From positions 1 through 54,344 of the forward strand of contig JAVEET010000061.1 of the NCBI GenBank assembly GCA_030840295.1: a DNA stretch of 54,344 nucleotides, written 5' to 3'. Shown here piece by piece: positions 28,851 through 42,696 of this stretch (positions are counted from its first letter, which is position 1; the number at the start of each line of letters is the position of its first letter). The notes below the pieces were generated by a model, which was given only the letters and a program-made list of their open reading frames with translations, did no database searches and was not told where the DNA came from. The position numbers and the translations under genes were made by a program. This DNA is from Pseudonocardiales bacterium. GTDB taxonomy: Bacteria; Actinomycetota; Actinomycetes; Mycobacteriales; Jatrophihabitantaceae.

Positions 28851-29849
28851 GTGCAGAGAATCGAAGCGTCGATCCCCAGCCCGACCATCAGCGTCATCCA
28901 CCTCGGCCCACTGCCTATCCACATCTACGCGCTCGGCATCGTCGCCGGCATCATCGTCGCGTTATGGCTCACCGACCGACGCTGGCAAGCCCGGGGCGGA
29001 GCCAAGCACGAGGTCGGTGACATAGCGGGCTGGGCCATCATCTTCGGAATCCTCGGCGGCCGGCTCTACCACGTCCTCACTGATCCGGAACTTTACTTCC
29101 AGAAGGGACGGCATCCGATCGATGCCGTCAAGATCTGGGACGGCGGACTCGGTATCTGGGGGGCCGTTGCAATCGGCGGTCTGGGAGCCTACATCGGATG
29201 CCGACGGCACAAGCTGAGCTTCGTCGCCTTCGCCGACGCCGCCGTGCCTGGGATCATCATCGCCCAGGCCCTCGGCCGGCTCGGTAACTGGTTCAACAAC
29301 GAGCTTTACGGACGGGCGACCAGCCTGCCCTGGAAGCTGCAGATCCACGACATGGACATCTCGACCGGACGTCCGCAACCGTGTTCCTTCGGCAACCTCG
29401 GTCAGACCGTCTGCGGCTACTACCAGCCGACTTTCCTCTATGAGCTGCTGTGGAATCTCCTCATTGCGGCGCTGCTGCTGTGGGCCGACCGGAGATTCAG
29501 ACTGGCCCGCGGTCAGGTCTTCGCGCTCTACGTCATGGGCTACACCGCCGGCCGCTTCGTGATCGAGTCACTGCGCTCGGACCCTGCCAACCATATCCTG
29601 GGGATGCGGGTCAACAATTGGGTTGCGATCATCGCCTTTCTCGGTGGGCTCGCCCTCTTCCTGCATCAGCGCGGCAAGGAACGCAGTAGCGCCGGCCCGC
29701 CCGACGGCATAGACCACGCCGGTGACGGGACGGAGCCCCCGGATACCGAAAATGCTGAGTTAGGTGGTCCTGAGTACGAGTCGGACCTGGCGGGCGACCT
29801 AGCATCGAAGCATGTCGACGACTCAGGACCTGCACCATCCGATCGGTGA
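28851..29849 (+). CDS. lgt: Prolipoprotein diacylglyceryl transferase
   Basis: Membrane enzyme that transfers diacylglycerol to the lipobox cysteine, the first step of lipoprotein maturation; works ahead of LspA (0.4 kb) on substrates such as LivK. The 332-residue protein has about seven helices. The signature GRLGNWFNNELYG (catalytic Arg and Asn) and the HxxxD-like GGRLYHVLTDPE region are present. The hydrophilic C-terminal tail (~50 residues, Glu/Asp/Pro-rich) is common in actinobacteria. GTG 28851 gives the N terminus that the family requires; the long frame upstream is antisense to the quinone oxidoreductase. The 3' end contains the promoter and start of the VIT gene. Confidence 0.95.
   Translation: MQRIEASIPSPTISVIHLGPLPIHIYALGIVAGIIVALWLTDRRWQARGGAKHEVGDIAGWAIIFGILGGRLYHVLTDPELYFQKGRHPIDAVKIWDGGLGIWGAVAIGGLGAYIGCRRHKLSFVAFADAAVPGIIIAQALGRLGNWFNNELYGRATSLPWKLQIHDMDISTGRPQPCSFGNLGQTVCGYYQPTFLYELLWNLLIAALLLWADRRFRLARGQVFALYVMGYTAGRFVIESLRSDPANHILGMRVNNWVAIIAFLGGLALFLHQRGKERSSAGPPDGIDHAGDGTEPPDTENAELGGPEYESDLAGDLASKHVDDSGPAPSDR
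29800..29805 (+). promoter_or_regulatory. -10 TAGCAT for VIT transporter, inside lgt
   Basis: TAGCAT, then 6 nt, then ATG 29812. The hexamer lies within the last 50 bp of lgt coding sequence. Confidence 0.5.
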
Positions 29850-30549
29850 TCCCGATCATGAGATAGGACATGAACACCGCGATGTGTCCGGAGGGTGGCT
29901 TCGTCCCACCGTCTTCGGCATGGTCGACGGTCTGGTGTCCAACTTCGCGATCGTCGCCCTTGTCGCGGCGGCATCCAACACCGCTCGGCCGGTGGTGCTG
30001 GCTGGGCTGGCCGGCCTGGTCGGCGGCGCGATCTCGATGGGCAGTGGCGAGTACATCTCGGTGCGCAGCCAGAACGAGTCGATGCAGGCCGAGGTCGATG
30101 TCGAGCGGCACGAACTCGAACACAACAGCGAAGCCGAGATCGCCGAACTTGCGCAGATCTATATCGGCCGGGGAGTCGACCCGGAACTGGCCCAGCTGGT
30201 GGCCGAGCAGCTGAGCCAGGATCCTGAACAGGCCCTGGAGATCCACGCGCAGGAAGAACTCGGCGTCGACATCCACGACCTGCCGAACCCGCAGATGGCT
30301 GCCGGTTCGTCGTTCGTGGCATTCTCGATCGGTGCCTTCATCCCGCTGGCGCCGTTCCTCTTCGGCGCGAAAGTGCTGCCGATCGCGGCCGTGCTGGCGC
30401 TGGTCGCTCTGTTCGTAACCGGCGCTATCACCTCGCGCTTCACGACCCGCACCTGGTGGTACGCCGGTAGCCGGCAACTACTGGTCGGCCTGCTCTCGGC
30501 CGCCGTCACGTACGGCATCGGGTATCTGTTCGGCACGACCGCGGGCTGA
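29812..30549 (+). CDS. VIT1/CCC1-family metal transporter
   Basis: A 245-residue membrane protein of the vacuolar iron transporter family, which moves Fe2+ or Mn2+. The first helix begins RPTVFGMVDGLVSNFAIV, followed by GGAISMGSGEYISVRSQ, the family hallmark with an acidic residue in the pore region. A long acidic cytoplasmic insert (~residues 75-155, many Glu/His such as HELEHNSEAEIAEL) corresponds to the metal-binding domain of plant VIT1. Three helices close the protein. It starts within lgt (38-nt overlap) and its 3' end overlaps the convergent ion-channel gene by 72 nt. Metal specificity cannot be read from sequence. Confidence 0.9.
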   Translation: MSTTQDLHHPIGDPDHEIGHEHRDVSGGWLRPTVFGMVDGLVSNFAIVALVAAASNTARPVVLAGLAGLVGGAISMGSGEYISVRSQNESMQAEVDVERHELEHNSEAEIAELAQIYIGRGVDPELAQLVAEQLSQDPEQALEIHAQEELGVDIHDLPNPQMAAGSSFVAFSIGAFIPLAPFLFGAKVLPIAAVLALVALFVTGAITSRFTTRTWWYAGSRQLLVGLLSAAVTYGIGYLFGTTAG

Positions 30550-31239
30550 GCCTGGCGCCGAAGGGTCGCGCGTGTCGCGCCACCTGGCGCGCGCAACCGT
30601 AAGCCCGACCATCCAGGACACGATCATCGCGACGTAAGCCAAACCGGCGACCTGCTCGATCATCACGAAGCTGCGAGCATGCGGTAGCACCGGTACGACA
30701 TCGCTGAGTCCGGTGGACGACAGCGTGGTGAAGCTCAGGAACAGCAGTTCCATCCAGGTCCGGTTTCCTACCGGATCAGCGGCGGTGAACGAAGCCGGCC
30801 AGAGCACCTGGGTCACCGCGTAAAGGTGGGCGAACGCCCAGGCCAGCAGCGTGAAGGTGGCTCCGACGGCGTACAGCTCGTCCCGGGTGATGGTGAAGTC
30901 GGCGAGCATGTAGGAGATCAGGCTGCCGGCGGCGTAGAAGTAGAAGGCCGCCTCGAATCCCGATCCCCAGCCGATCCAGGCGTCGCTGTCGTTGAAGACC
31001 TGCAGCACTGCAAAGGCCGCCGACGGCACGCCGAGCAGGATCGATACCCAGACCGCCCAGGCCGTGGTCTCGACCGACCAGACTGCCAGGGCCAGCACCA
31101 GCAGCCCGAACATCGAGATCGCAGCGGAGCCGGCTCGTGAATCGCCGAAGAACGGATAGATCAGGACGCCGAGCAGTTGCACACCGAGGAGCATGGCCGA
31201 GGGCTGGCGGCGAAGCCGGCCGACCAGCGCAGCGGTCAC
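30478..31239 (-). CDS. Ion-channel-family membrane protein with non-canonical filter
   Basis: A 253-residue protein with about five to six helices preceding a pore-loop and final helix of the two-TM ion channel (Ion_trans_2) type: LFLSFTTLSSTGLSDVVP then the helix EQVAGLAYVAMIVSWMVG. The position of the K+ filter TxGYGD is occupied by T176-G177-L178-S179-D180. K+ selectivity is therefore uncertain. The C-terminal ~40 residues are hydrophilic and cytoplasmic. GTG 31239 overlaps the stop of the ankyrin gene (GTGA), so the two are translationally coupled. The 3' end overlaps the convergent VIT gene by 72 nt, which is unusual but both frames look genuine. Confidence 0.8.
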   Translation of the reverse strand: MTAALVGRLRRQPSAMLLGVQLLGVLIYPFFGDSRAGSAAISMFGLLVLALAVWSVETTAWAVWVSILLGVPSAAFAVLQVFNDSDAWIGWGSGFEAAFYFYAAGSLISYMLADFTITRDELYAVGATFTLLAWAFAHLYAVTQVLWPASFTAADPVGNRTWMELLFLSFTTLSSTGLSDVVPVLPHARSFVMIEQVAGLAYVAMIVSWMVGLTVARARWRDTRDPSAPGSARGRAEQIPDAVRDGGREQADQ

Positions 31240-31958
31240 GGGGTCCGTTCGATCAGGATGCGCACGGCATCGTCCACGGCGCGATCGGCGGCCAGATCCC
31301 GCGCTGTCGCGCCGTCCTCATTCGCCAGCGACGGATCGGCCCCGGCGGCGAGCAACGCCTGCACCGACTCCTCGTCACCGTTCTGGACTGCGGCGTGCAG
31401 TGGGGTCCAACCTCCGCGTTGCCTTGCGTCGATGGGTGCGTCCGAGGCGATCAGCAGCCACACCAGTTCCACATGCCGGCCGGCCGCGGCGGCGTGCAGC
31501 GGTTGCACCCGCATCGGGTTGCGGGACGGTTCATCCACCACGGCGTCTGAGTCGAGCAAGACGCGGGCCGCCTCGGCCCGACCGAAGTAGGCCGCGAGGT
31601 GCAGGGGCTGCCAGCCGTCGGCCGACCAGGCGTCGACCGCAGCAGCATCGGTCCGGATGAGCTCTGCCAAACGGTCGGTGTCATCGAACGCGGCGGCCTC
31701 GAAGACGGTGAGTTCGCCGGTACGTGCGGCCAGCTCGTCGGCCAGTGGGGCGTGGCCGTGGTAAAGGGCAGTGAGGGCCGCTGATGCGCCGTCCGGGCCG
31801 GGTTCGTCGAGCAGATCAGGAATTCGGTCCAGCAGCGCTCGTACCTCGGTCTGGTCGCCGACGCCGATCGCCTCGAAGAAGGCCGCCACAGTGGATTCGG
31901 TGCTACCGGATGCGGTGCTACCGGATGCGGTGCTGTCGGATGCGGTGCTGTCGGACAT
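31236..31958 (-). CDS. Ankyrin-repeat protein coupled to ion channel
   Basis: About 240 residues with four to five ankyrin repeats. The clearest repeats read DGWQPLHLAAYFGRAEAARVLL, then NPMRVQPLHAAAAGRHVELVWLL, and GGWTPLHAAVQNGDEESVQALL, each with the LHxAA helix and G-turn. The N terminus is a Ser/Thr/Asp/Gly-rich stretch from a 15-bp DNA repeat. ATG 31958 is preferred (CAGAGT 7 nt upstream); TTG 31967 is alternative. The coupled downstream gene is a membrane ion channel, suggesting a cytoplasmic partner or regulatory module; this is inference from the GTGA overlap. Confidence 0.85.
   Translation of the reverse strand: MSDSTASDSTASGSTASGSTESTVAAFFEAIGVGDQTEVRALLDRIPDLLDEPGPDGASAALTALYHGHAPLADELAARTGELTVFEAAAFDDTDRLAELIRTDAAAVDAWSADGWQPLHLAAYFGRAEAARVLLDSDAVVDEPSRNPMRVQPLHAAAAGRHVELVWLLIASDAPIDARQRGGWTPLHAAVQNGDEESVQALLAAGADPSLANEDGATARDLAADRAVDDAVRILIERTP
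31899..31958 (-). repeat. 15-bp tandem repeat, four units, at the ankyrin gene start
   Basis: Four units from 31899 (unit GGTGCTACCGGATGC on the plus strand, with ACC or GTC variants) encode the TASGS/TASDS residues just after the start codon. The repeat is in frame, so copy changes would not break the gene. Confidence 0.85.
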
Positions 31959-32134: not shown

Positions 32135-35100
32135 ATGAGCGAGGGAGCGCGCGTGCCGTCCTCCACACTGCCGCCTGCCGGACTGCCGTTCTCCGGCGTA
32201 CCCCGCCCGCAGGGCCTGTACGACCCCCGCAACGAAGCCGATTCCTGCGGCGTGGCATTCCTGGCCGATTTGAACGGACGGCCGCGCCACGCGCTGGTCT
32301 CCGACGCCTTGGTCGCACTGCACAACATGGACCACCGCGGTGCCGCCGGCGCCGAGCCCTCCAGCGGCGACGGAGCGGGCCTCACCGTCGGTATTCCGGA
32401 CGAGTTCCTGCGCGGCGTGCTGGCCGGTACCGAGATCGAGTTGCCCGAGGCGGGTGCCTACGTCACCGGCATCGCGTTCCTGCCGACCAATGCCGACCGG
32501 CGGGCGCGGATCAAGGACCTGATCGCGTCCACGGCCAAGGACGAAGGCCTGGAGCTCCTCGGCTGGCGCAGCGTTCCCACGGTCGCCGATGACCTCGGCC
32601 CGACCGCGCTGGGCGTGATGCCGGCCTTCGAGCAGCCGGTGTTGCGTGCGCCGGACGGTGCCACCGGCCTGCCTCTGGAACGACGTGCCTTCGCGCTCCG
32701 CAAGGTCGCCGAACGGCTGGCTGCTGCGGCCGGCGAGGAGCTGTACTTCCCGTCGCTGTCCTGCCGGACCATGGTCTACAAAGGCATGCTGACGACCGCC
32801 CAACTCGCTTCGTTCTACCCGGACCTCGCTGATGAGCGGTTCACCACAGCGATTGCGCTGGTCCATAGCCGCTTCTCCACCAATACCTTTCCATCCTGGC
32901 CGCTGGCTCAGCCGTTCCGCATGATCGCCCACAACGGCGAGATCAATACCGTCGGGGGCAACCGCAACTGGATGCGCACCCGCCAGGCCATGTTGTCCTC
33001 GGATCTGTTCAGTGGCGCCTCCGGGCCCACCGACGGCTCCTCCGATCTCAGCAGGCTCTTTCCGATCTGCACTCACGGTGCGTCCGATTCGGCCTCCTTC
33101 GACGAGGTACTCGAGTTCCTGCACCTGGGCGGTCGAAGCCTGCCGCATGCGGTGCTGATGATGATTCCGGAGGCCTGGGAGAACGCCGTCGGCATGGATG
33201 AGGCGCGGCGGGATTTCTACGCCTTCCACTCGGCGTTGATGGAGCCCTGGGACGGTCCGGCCTGTGTCACATTCACCGACGGCACCGTGATCGGTGCGGT
33301 TCTCGACCGCAACGGTCTGCGTCCCGGCCGCTGGTGGAAGACCTCGGACGATCTCGTCATCCTGGCCAGCGAGGCCGGGGTCATCGACATCGACCCGGCC
33401 ACGGTCATCGCCAAGGGCCGGTTGCAGCCGGGCCGGATGTTTCTGGTGGACACCGCTGCGGGGCAGATCCGGGACGACGAGGAGATCAAGTCAGGGCTGG
33501 CGGCCGAGCAGCCGTACGGCGAATGGCTGCATTCGGGCCTGCTGCATCTGGACAAGCTGCCCAGTCGCGAGCATGTGGTGCACACCCACGAGTCGGTGCT
33601 GCGGCGTCAGCAGCTGTTCGGTTACACGGAGGAGGAGCTGCGGATCATCCTCAAGCCGATGGCAACCGCAGCCGGCGAACCACTCGGCTCGATGGGCACC
33701 GATACCCCCATGGCGGTGCTGTCCAAGCGTCCCCGGCTGCTCTTCGACTACTTCTCCGAGCTATTTGCGCAGGTCACCAACCCACCCCTGGACGCAATAC
33801 GCGAGGAGCTGGTCACCTCGCTGTCGGGCACGATCGGCCCGGAATACAACCTGCTCGACCCCACACCGGCGTCCTGCCGCCAGATCGTGCTGCCCGCTCC
33901 GGTGCTGGACAACGACGATCTGGCCAAGATCTGGCACGTCAACGCCGACGGTGATCTGCCGGGCTTCCAGTGCGCGCTGATCGACGGCCGATACCGCGTG
34001 CACGGGGGAGGACCGGCCCTGACCGCCGCCCTGCAACGGGTGCGTGAGGAGTGCTCACGGGCCATCGATGCCGGGGCGCGGATCCTGATCCTGTCCGACC
34101 GAGACTGCGACGCCGATCATGCACCGATCCCGTCGCTGTTGCTGACCTCGGCTGTTCACCATCACCTGGTGCGCACCGGTCAGCGCACCAAGGTCGGGCT
34201 CGTCGTCGAGACCGGCGAGGCGCGCGAGGTGCATCACATCGCCCTGCTGATCGGCTACGGCGCCGCGGCAGTCAACCCCTATCTGGCGTTCGAGACCATC
34301 GACGACCTGATCGCCTCCGGGGTCATCTCAGACGTCGAGCCCAAGGCCGCGCTGGCCAAGTACATCAAGGGACTGTCCAAGGGCGTGCTGAAGGTGATGT
34401 CGAAGATGGGCATCTCCACTGTGGCCTCCTACACGGGCGCCCAGGTGTTCCAGTCCTTCGGCCTCTCCGACGAGGTCGTCGACGAATACTTCACTGGCAC
34501 CGTGCACAAGCTCGGCGGCGTTGATCTCGAGGTGATCGCGAGCGAAGTGACCGCTCGGCACACCCGGGCGTTCCCGCTCACGCCGACCGCGCGGGCCCAC
34601 CGCAAGCTCGAGATCGGCGGCGAGTACACCTGGCGCCGCGAGGGCGAGATCCACCTGTTCAACCCGGAAACGGTCTTCAAGTTGCAGCACGCCACCCGGC
34701 AGCGGCGCTATGACACTTTCCGGGAGTACACCGACGAGGTCGACCGGCTGAACAGCGAGGGCGCGACGCTGCGGGGGCTGTTCCAGCTCAGGACCGGCCA
34801 GCGTCCGGCCATCTCGATCGACGAGGTCGAACCGGTTTCGGAGATCGTCAAGCGCTTCGCCACCGGAGCGATGTCCTACGGCTCGATCTCGGCCGAGGCC
34901 CACGAGACCCTGGCCATCGCCATGAACCGGCTCGGCGCCCGGTCGAACTCCGGTGAAGGTGGCGAGGACGCGGTCCGGTTCACCCCGGACGAGAACGGCG
35001 ATCTGCGGCGCTCGGCGGTGAAGCAGGTGGCCTCTGGTCGTTTCGGGGTGACCTCGCACTACCTGGTCAATGCCGATGACTTGCAGATCAAGGTCGCTCA

Positions 35101-36763
35101 AGGCGCCAAGCCGGGTGAGGGCGGCCAGTTGCCGGGGTACAAGGTGTACCCGTGGATCGCCCGTACCAGGCATTCCACCCCGGGCGTAGGCCTGATCTCG
35201 CCACCGCCGCACCACGACATCTACTCCATCGAGGACCTGGCCCAGCTGATCCACGACCTGAAGAACGCGAACTCTGCGGCTCGTATCCACGTCAAGCTGG
35301 TTGCCGAGAACGGCGTCGGGACGGTGGCCGCGGGCGTGTCCAAGGCGCACGCCGACGTGGTGCTCATCTCCGGCCATGACGGCGGAACCGGCGCGGCACC
35401 GCTGACTTCCCTCAAGCACGCGGGCATGCCGTGGGAACTCGGGCTGGCCGAAACCCAGCAGACCCTGATCCTGAACGGCCTGCGGGATCGCATCACGGTT
35501 CAGGTCGACGGGGCCATGAAGACCGGCCGGGACGTGGTCATCGCCGCGCTGCTCGGCGCGGAGGAGTACGGCTTCGCCACCGCTCCGCTGGTCGTCTCGG
35601 GCTGCGTGATGATGCGCGTCTGCCACCTGGACACCTGTCCGGTCGGGGTGGCCACCCAGAACCCGGTGCTGCGGTCCAGGTTCACCGGCAAGCCGGAATT
35701 CGTGGTCACCTTCTTCGAATACATCGCCGAACAGGTCCGCGAGATCCTGGCTTCGCTGGGCTTTCGCACCATGCAGGAGGCGATCGGGCACGCGGAGTTC
35801 CTGGACACCTCGGACGCCATCGATCACTGGAAGGCGGACGGGCTCGATCTGCGGCCGATCCTGACCATGCCCGAACCGCCTCCCGGCACCGCGCTGACCA
35901 AGCGGGTCGAGCAGGACCACGGCCTGGATGCGGCTCTGGACAACACGCTGATCCAGCTGTGTGAGGGCGCGCTGCTGGACGGCACGCCGGTCACCCTCGA
36001 GCTGCCGGTGCGCAACGTCAACCGCACCGTGGGGACGATGCTCGGTTCCCTGGTCACCCGGCGCTACGGGGCGGCCGGCTTGCCATCGGGCACCATCGAC
36101 ATCACGTTGCACGGCTCGGCCGGACAGTCGCTTGGGGCGTTCCTGCCTTCCGGGGTGCAGATCCGGCTGTACGGGGACGCCAACGACTACGTGGGCAAGG
36201 GATTGTCCGGCGGCACCATCTCGGTGCGTCCGCACGAGGACGCCCCGCTGATCGCGGAGAACAACGTGATCGCCGGCAACGTAATCGGCTACGGAGCCAC
36301 GTCCGGTGAGCTGTACCTGCGCGGGATCGTGGGCGAGCGGTTCTGTGTCCGTAACTCCGGGGCCGTCGCGGTCACCGAGGGTGCGGGCGACCACGCGCTC
36401 GAATACATGACCGGCGGAACCGCGGTGATCCTCGGCCGGACCGGCCGAAACCTCGCTGCGGGCATGTCCGGTGGTACCGCCTTCGTCCTGGACCTGGACG
36501 AGGGGCTGGTCAATCGCGAGCTGGTGGAGGTCGAGGAGGTCACGGCCGAGCAGGTCACGACGCTGCGCACCATCCTGGGCCGGCATTACGAACTCACCGG
36601 TTCGACGGTTGCCGAGAAGTTGCTCGGCGACTTCGCAGCGTCCGTCGCGCGGTTCTCGGTGATCATGCCGCGGGACTACAAGCGGGTCATCGAGGCCACC
36701 AGGCAAGCGATGGCCGAGGGCCGTGACGTCGACGAAGCGGTGATGGCAGCCGCCCGGGGTTGA
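32135..36763 (+). CDS. gltB: Glutamate synthase large subunit
   Basis: NADPH- or ferredoxin-linked glutamine:2-oxoglutarate amidotransferase alpha subunit, 1542 residues, normal length. Order: class II glutaminase domain with nucleophile in EADSCGVAF (C38, exposed after propeptide removal), a central domain, FMN-binding synthase barrel (~840-1200) with [18 protein letters not shown] and [11 protein letters not shown], the 3Fe-4S cluster C1157-x5-C1163-x4-C1168, and the C-terminal GXGXG beta-helix with [16 protein letters not shown] 32135 begins a 37-residue propeptide. gltD, the usual next gene, is absent: an antiporter gene follows after 52 nt. The 167-bp upstream gap shows no unambiguous promoter. 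Confidence 0.97.
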
Positions 36764-42623: not shown

Positions 42624-42696
42624 TGCCCCCGGTGGGATTCGAACCCACACTGGACGGATTTTGAATCCGCTTCCTCTGCCGTTGGGATACAGGGGC
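42624..42696 (-). tRNA. tRNA with CAA anticodon (nominally Leu), short variable loop
   Basis: 73 nt on the minus strand fold as a class I cloverleaf: acceptor GCCCCTG/CGGGGGC, TA, a D arm with a three-pair stem and the AACGGCAG loop, anticodon stem GCGGA/TCCGT (one G-U) with loop TTCAAAA, variable loop CCAGT (5 nt), T arm GTGGG TTCGAAT CCCAC, discriminator A. CCA is not encoded. The anticodon CAA (plus-strand TTG, 42661-42663) reads Leu UUG codons. Canonical bacterial tRNA-Leu has a long variable arm, which is lacking here. Located between the decarboxylase and ANTAR regulator. Confidence 0.9.

Follow-up and report, generated by a model that had tools for sequence, protein, structure and literature searches.

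KcsA and KirBac3.1 combine a pore helix, a filter loop with GYGD or GFGD, and an inner helix. Among the filter residues of K+ channels, the outermost glycine is usually regarded as essential, and in hERG the G628S change alone is a loss-of-function change that causes disease. hERG has a six-helix layout with a charged fourth helix and a cyclic-nucleotide-binding domain, and TRP-type channels unite ankyrin domains with a channel. According to PMC11380439, the hERG double mutant K525N&G628S, with the filter GFS, remained K+ selective; a hERG G628S variant also appears in a table of PMC7212895. PMC3369850 names GLG as a K+-channel motif and describes a bacterial pore protein without the K+ signature that did not rescue a K+-uptake-deficient yeast. 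Here we analyze a locus from a Pseudonocardiales bacterium, in which an ankyrin-repeat gene and a channel gene with a GLSD filter lie together in a 54,344-nucleotide stretch (contig JAVEET010000061.1; hereafter the window). Our preferred reading, to which we give roughly two chances in three, is that the channel is a stand-alone, K+-channel-like cation channel from a serine-filter subfamily and that the ankyrin protein, probably co-translated with it in one genus, works independently. The features on which the argument turns are these:

31236..31958, minus strand: ankyrin-repeat gene, 240 amino acids, ATG start (Ank_2, PF12796, E 1e-23)
30478..31239, minus strand: six-helix Ion_trans_2 channel gene, 253 amino acids, GTG start (PF07885, E 4.3e-07)
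31236..31239, minus strand: GTGA overlap of four bases, the ankyrin stop TGA plus the channel start GTG (read from the sequence)
30700..30720, minus strand: SSTGLSD codons, residues 174-180, the selectivity-filter segment (translation and alignment with K+ channel filters)
31893..31949, minus strand: 15-base tandem repeat, 3.8 copies, coding for the N-terminal, STAS-rich part of the ankyrin protein (TRF)
29812..30549, plus strand: VIT1 family transporter gene, convergent with the channel gene (PF01988, E 1.7e-67)
32135..36763, plus strand: large open reading frame divergent from the ankyrin gene (open reading frame call)

An earlier note on this DNA had claimed an ankyrin gene translationally coupled through GTGA to a membrane channel gene, and all three elements stand: both genes are established, with Pfam scores above their cut-offs (84.1 bits versus 27.3 for PF12796; 30.2 bits versus 22.5 for PF07885), a solenoid is predicted for the ankyrin protein, and the four-base overlap at 31236-31239 is present. 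The ankyrin open reading frame has an alternative in-frame GTG nine bases upstream of its ATG. The divergent frame at 32135..36763 on the plus strand is presumably a gltB-like gene for the glutamate synthase large subunit (gltB and lgt are putative names at this locus), and a gltB-like gene adjoins the ankyrin gene in G017, G006 and others too. At its other end the channel gene is overlapped over its last 72 bases (30478-30549) by VIT1; the corresponding matches overlap in the relative G100 as well. A promoter scan found none, and a terminator scan gave one match, near the shuffled mean of 0.6. Elsewhere in the window, a tRNA gene (42624-42696, minus strand) is the sole Rfam match at the gathering threshold. 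The assembly as a whole holds one channel match (E <= 0.001).

The tight packing of the two genes recurs in all seven channel-bearing genomes of the genus. Four of these loci have a clear four-base overlap (two GTGA, two ATGA), and the other three show gaps of 4 and 10 and an overlap of 8 bases, values that depend on chosen starts of which we are unsure; in G153 a contig end truncates the ankyrin gene. Pairwise dN/dS among relatives lies between 0.09 and 0.43 in the ankyrin gene and between 0.22 and 0.48 in the channel gene, and since both open reading frames are conserved in relatives, they represent more than chance. The ankyrin and the channel are probably co-translated in this one uncultured genus, in which the channel gene stands directly behind the ankyrin gene.

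Judged from its sequence and a predicted fold, the channel is a member of the K+-channel-like pore superfamily. Ion_trans_2 is matched in 66 of the 66 members of the channel alignment (E <= 0.01), and the pore reads TTLSSTGLSDVVP. A single-chain AF2 model built from the same 66 sequences (mean pLDDT 88.6, pTM 0.84) predicts helices at 13-30, 35-56, 60-82, 86-113, 119-146 and 186-224 and a pore helix at 162-173, so that two helices flank a pore helix and a filter loop; across residues 131-210 the ten-residue confidence means are 95-98, with one block at 90. Whether the pore segment forms a filter in structure prediction had been set beforehand as a test of the earlier claim, and in this model it does. 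Residues 106..218 superpose on a KirBac3.1-type channel with Z 8.7 and an rmsd of 2.1 Å over 102 residues, and the whole model superposes on hERG more loosely (Z 9.0, rmsd 5.0 over 150). Such Z values can reflect the common arrangement of helical bundles, so the sequence match also carries weight in the pore assignment; Foldseek with the channel model returned no PDB match at E <= 0.001. A profile search with the channel reached entries for Lmo2059, K2P, KirBac3.1 and KcsA over the same region, and the printed alignments with solved K+ channels show no gap in the filter stretch. The KcsA match is given as ranges only, profile 159-219 on chain 60-120, and because these are of equal length, channel residue n would correspond to KcsA n-100. 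In this register G177, D180 and G199 are equivalent to KcsA G77, D80 and G99, all three retained, and S179 takes the place of G79; G177, D180, P183, R189 and G199 are invariant in the channel alignment.

The channel also departs from each of its models. It has four extra N-terminal helices relative to KcsA and KirBac3.1, and GLSD where these have GYGD/GFGD. Only 29 residues follow the last helix, which ends at 224, leaving no Kir/KirBac C-terminal cytoplasmic domain, and from residue 231 the predicted confidence falls to 56-60. One Ion_trans_2 stretch and one pore helix per subunit do not make a K2P arrangement. The six-helix layout is like that of hERG, but the cyclic-nucleotide-binding domain is absent, and the fourth helix (residues 86-113) contains no Arg or Lys and hence no regularly spaced arginines, which makes the usual voltage gating unlikely. 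We posit that the protein would form a cation channel with six helices that belongs to the K+-channel superfamily, presumably as a tetramer, whose pore helix, filter loop and inner helix are predicted to follow KcsA and KirBac.

The filter itself, S174-S-T-G-L-S-D180, does not match the signature TxG[YF]GD; translation and pore-loop alignment bear out the earlier report of TGLSD in place of TxGYGD. Genome contigs were scanned for channel relatives; of the 473 found, the best 80 were examined, and these together with ten loci and three plasmid loci (from three of six plasmid records) gave 93 channels whose filters were read: SSTGLSD in 54, SSTGIGD in 10, SGTGLSD and SGVGLSD in 5 each, TSTGLSD and SAVGLGD in 4 each, SSTGLGD and SSVGLSD in 3 each, SATGLGD in 2, and SATGLSD, SGVGLND and SAVGLSD once each. 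These counts identify GLSD as a family trait. Four rows (L034-L037) that, judged by length, come from the same contigs as G100, G079, G165 and G153 were dropped before the residue counts, leaving 89; L008 and L040 are apparently one contig of 3628 bases and both are counted, so that the 89 rows are 88 distinct ones, and the 82 from outside the genus are 81. Among the 89 rows position 179 is Ser in 69, Gly in 19 and Asn in 1, with five changes by parsimony on a tree that includes the trait column and carries long branches. A repeat tree, with column 179 masked and the duplicate and longest-branch rows L040 and L033 removed (leaving 87 rows, with Ser in 67, Gly in 19 and Asn in 1), again requires five changes; starred branches impose four of these. 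The sister rows L050 and L058 differ at this position, Gly versus Ser. Five further channel loci from a phylum sample have TGLSD (three), VGLSD (one) and TGLGD (one), and weaker Ion_trans_2-like matches in the same order have GYGD, GFGD or GYGN (9 of 20 loci, those where the pattern caught the filter). As judged from these sequences, serine at 179 is what is usually found across a broad, uncharacterized bacterial subfamily that also includes GLGD, GIGD and GLND filters.

Three database relatives, WP_067283581.1, WP_319361463.1 and QCP18560.1, which align with 83-87% of the query at 51, 47 and 34% identity, are annotated as "ion channel" or "two pore domain potassium channel family protein" and have no ankyrin neighbor in the stretches fetched; Mitsuaria and Variovorax relatives have the filter TGIGD. 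On an Acinetobacter baumannii plasmid (CP040042.1, row L033) a 34% identical relative with TGLSD is flanked by a cation acetate symporter and a BCCT transporter. Our search of one open library found no paper on a potassium channel with a GLSD filter and nothing on an ankyrin/channel gene pair; as far as these few literature searches show, the serine-filter subfamily is unstudied.

What passes through such a filter is a matter of graded likelihood, and the earlier caution that the filter change leaves the ion unproven is upheld. An altered filter could select another ion, such as Na+ or NH4+, or be unselective: four residues of the KcsA filter, Thr75, Val76, Tyr78 and Gly79, are Ser, Thr, Leu and Ser in the channel, and Gly at position 179 is not retained in 70 of the 89 rows. 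Gly177, Asp180 and the register are nevertheless preserved, and the GLGD and GIGD relatives lie near accepted K+ filters (GLG being a K+-channel motif in PMC3369850). We consider such a non-K+ channel unlikely. A pore that does not conduct, serving as a silent subunit or a sensor by virtue of Ser at the outer filter position, would agree with the loss of function that G628S alone causes in hERG. The bacterial pore protein that lacks the K+ signature and failed in yeast (PMC3369850) also fits a silent pore, whereas within the genus no part of the channel is more conserved than the nearly fixed pore helix (1.0) and filter region (0.98), Gly and Ser alternate between sisters at 179, and the GFS double mutant of hERG (PMC11380439) conducts and is K+ selective. 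We regard a silent pore as improbable. The GFS filter corresponds to GLS of the channel described here, and in view of that double mutant (PMC11380439) we do not assume a loss of K+ selectivity; the serine that was introduced into hERG is natural and common in this family. The K+-channel-like cation channel that we favor would most likely conduct K+, alone or together with other monovalent cations, its outer filter site being slightly changed by Ser in place of the outermost Gly.

For the protein encoded by the partner gene, an AF2 model computed from a four-row alignment (mean pLDDT 89.6) shows a disordered N-terminus and, between about residue 16 and residue 238, a helical solenoid. The N-terminus of the G100 ankyrin protein is shorter than the STAS-rich one in the window. 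An NCBIfam trp match to the protein has E 0.16. TRP-type channels likewise bring ankyrin and channel together; here the ankyrin has a gene of its own, which does not accompany the channel across the channel family. The earlier note had proposed a two-part channel with a separate cytosolic gate. In such an arrangement the ankyrin protein would dock on the cytoplasmic side of the tetramer and gate it in this genus. The overlapping or tightly packed genes in seven of the seven channel-bearing genomes fit a functional link in this genus, and an ankyrin solenoid, as modeled, is suited to binding. At twelve positions the genus channels share a residue that is seldom seen at the 82 other loci; among these positions are R8 and Q12 in the N-terminal cytoplasmic stretch and residue 209 of the inner helix, which is Trp in all seven genus channels and Arg (80) or Tyr (2) in the 82 others; these genus-only changes could accompany a new partner. 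Against this, the cytoplasmic tails (0.51 and 0.48) are, with a three-residue outer loop (0.48), the most variable parts of the channel within the genus.

The distribution of the two genes, established by direct searches, weighs further against a two-part channel. The ankyrin lies beside the channel in every channel-bearing genome of the genus, and in 82 of the 89 loci the channel has no detectable ankyrin neighbor, which is not the co-occurrence of an obligate complex. No ankyrin neighbor was found at any of the 82 non-genus loci examined by tblastn with the window ankyrin and by an ankyrin-repeat HMM; 76 of these loci extend at least 800 bases on both sides and six are shorter on one side. 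The HMM, built from the genus repeats, found eight of eight ankyrin loci outside its training set (weakest E 5.8e-05); very divergent ankyrins could escape these searches. The five phylum-sample loci, which may repeat earlier records, also have no ankyrin beside the channel; in that sample the channel occurs in 6 of 396 genomes, the window's own included. Single-linkage clustering of neighboring open reading frames at 76 loci gave clusters that track taxonomy at the level of genus or family (Kribbella, Lysobacteraceae). Two further clusters, of 75-76 loci, we interpret as the channel itself and its shadow frames, and one of 29 loci has its example on the opposite strand across the channel region.

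The converse is also seen: the ankyrin occurs without the channel in G017, G006, G020, G054, G208, G231, G248 and G300. Within the genus the channel is present in seven of nine genomes and absent from G017 and the 63%-complete G171, and the ankyrin is present in eight of nine, G017 among them. A channel search (E <= 0.001) matched none of nine genomes, namely G017, G171 and the seven ankyrin-bearing genomes of other genera, and the same query matched other genomes. In G017 the ankyrin gene (71% identity) sits between gltB and VIT1. Its dN/dS is 0.157 against G000, 0.195 against G153 and 0.342 against G079, with dS high in the wider pairs (1.32 for G000-G017; 1.60 over 122 codons for G000-G153); these values fall in the range of pairs in which both genomes carry the channel (0.094-0.431), and so the G017 ankyrin is not decaying but is under purifying selection. 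With the pair, whose conservation the earlier note had set as a test, limited to one genus among the loci examined and the ankyrin persisting without the channel in G017 and in other families, a two-part channel is possible but disfavored, and we hold it to be decidedly unlikely.

The history of the locus is in keeping with two separable genes. G017 is a single-contig genome of 99% completeness, and it falls inside the genus both on a gltB tree (with G153, G000 and G100, at 99/99) and on a VIT1+lgt tree computed without G079 (with G058, G065 and G165, at 90/85); given this nesting, loss of the channel is the simplest explanation of its absence. In a sample of the order, 11 of 200 genomes have the ankyrin (E <= 1e-15), eight of the genus plus G006, G020 and G054, and in a sample of the class, 5 of 394 (E <= 1e-20), the window's own plus G208, G231, G248 and G300; none of the ankyrin loci fetched from these last four contains a channel. 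G006, from another family, has the order lgt-ankyrin-gltB and no channel. Because the ankyrin occupies the locus elsewhere without the channel, it seems, from this comparison of gene orders, to be the older resident, with the channel a later arrival in the genus. In other genera of the window's own family, lgt and VIT1 lie together at 12 loci, where the fetched sequence, reaching some 1 to 1.5 kb past VIT1, holds neither ankyrin nor channel, and the ankyrin is absent from all 15 listed genomes of those genera; alternatively, the ankyrin at the G006 locus could be an independent second insertion. Under the preferred reading of a stand-alone channel, the ankyrin protein would be a distinct cytosolic product of the gltB-lgt locus whose function does not depend on the channel.

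A more speculative combination of these elements, which we put forward as a long shot, is that channels of the serine-filter family are K+-conducting but differ in the occupancy of the outer site or in inactivation, and that one genus has recruited the older ankyrin of the locus as a detachable cytoplasmic regulator, an event marked by changes such as Arg209 to Trp. The ankyrin pairing offers an example in which tight gene overlap need not mean an obligate complex, and a natural family that mostly has Ser, alternating with Gly on the tree, at a position usually regarded as requiring glycine is ready-made test material for that position.
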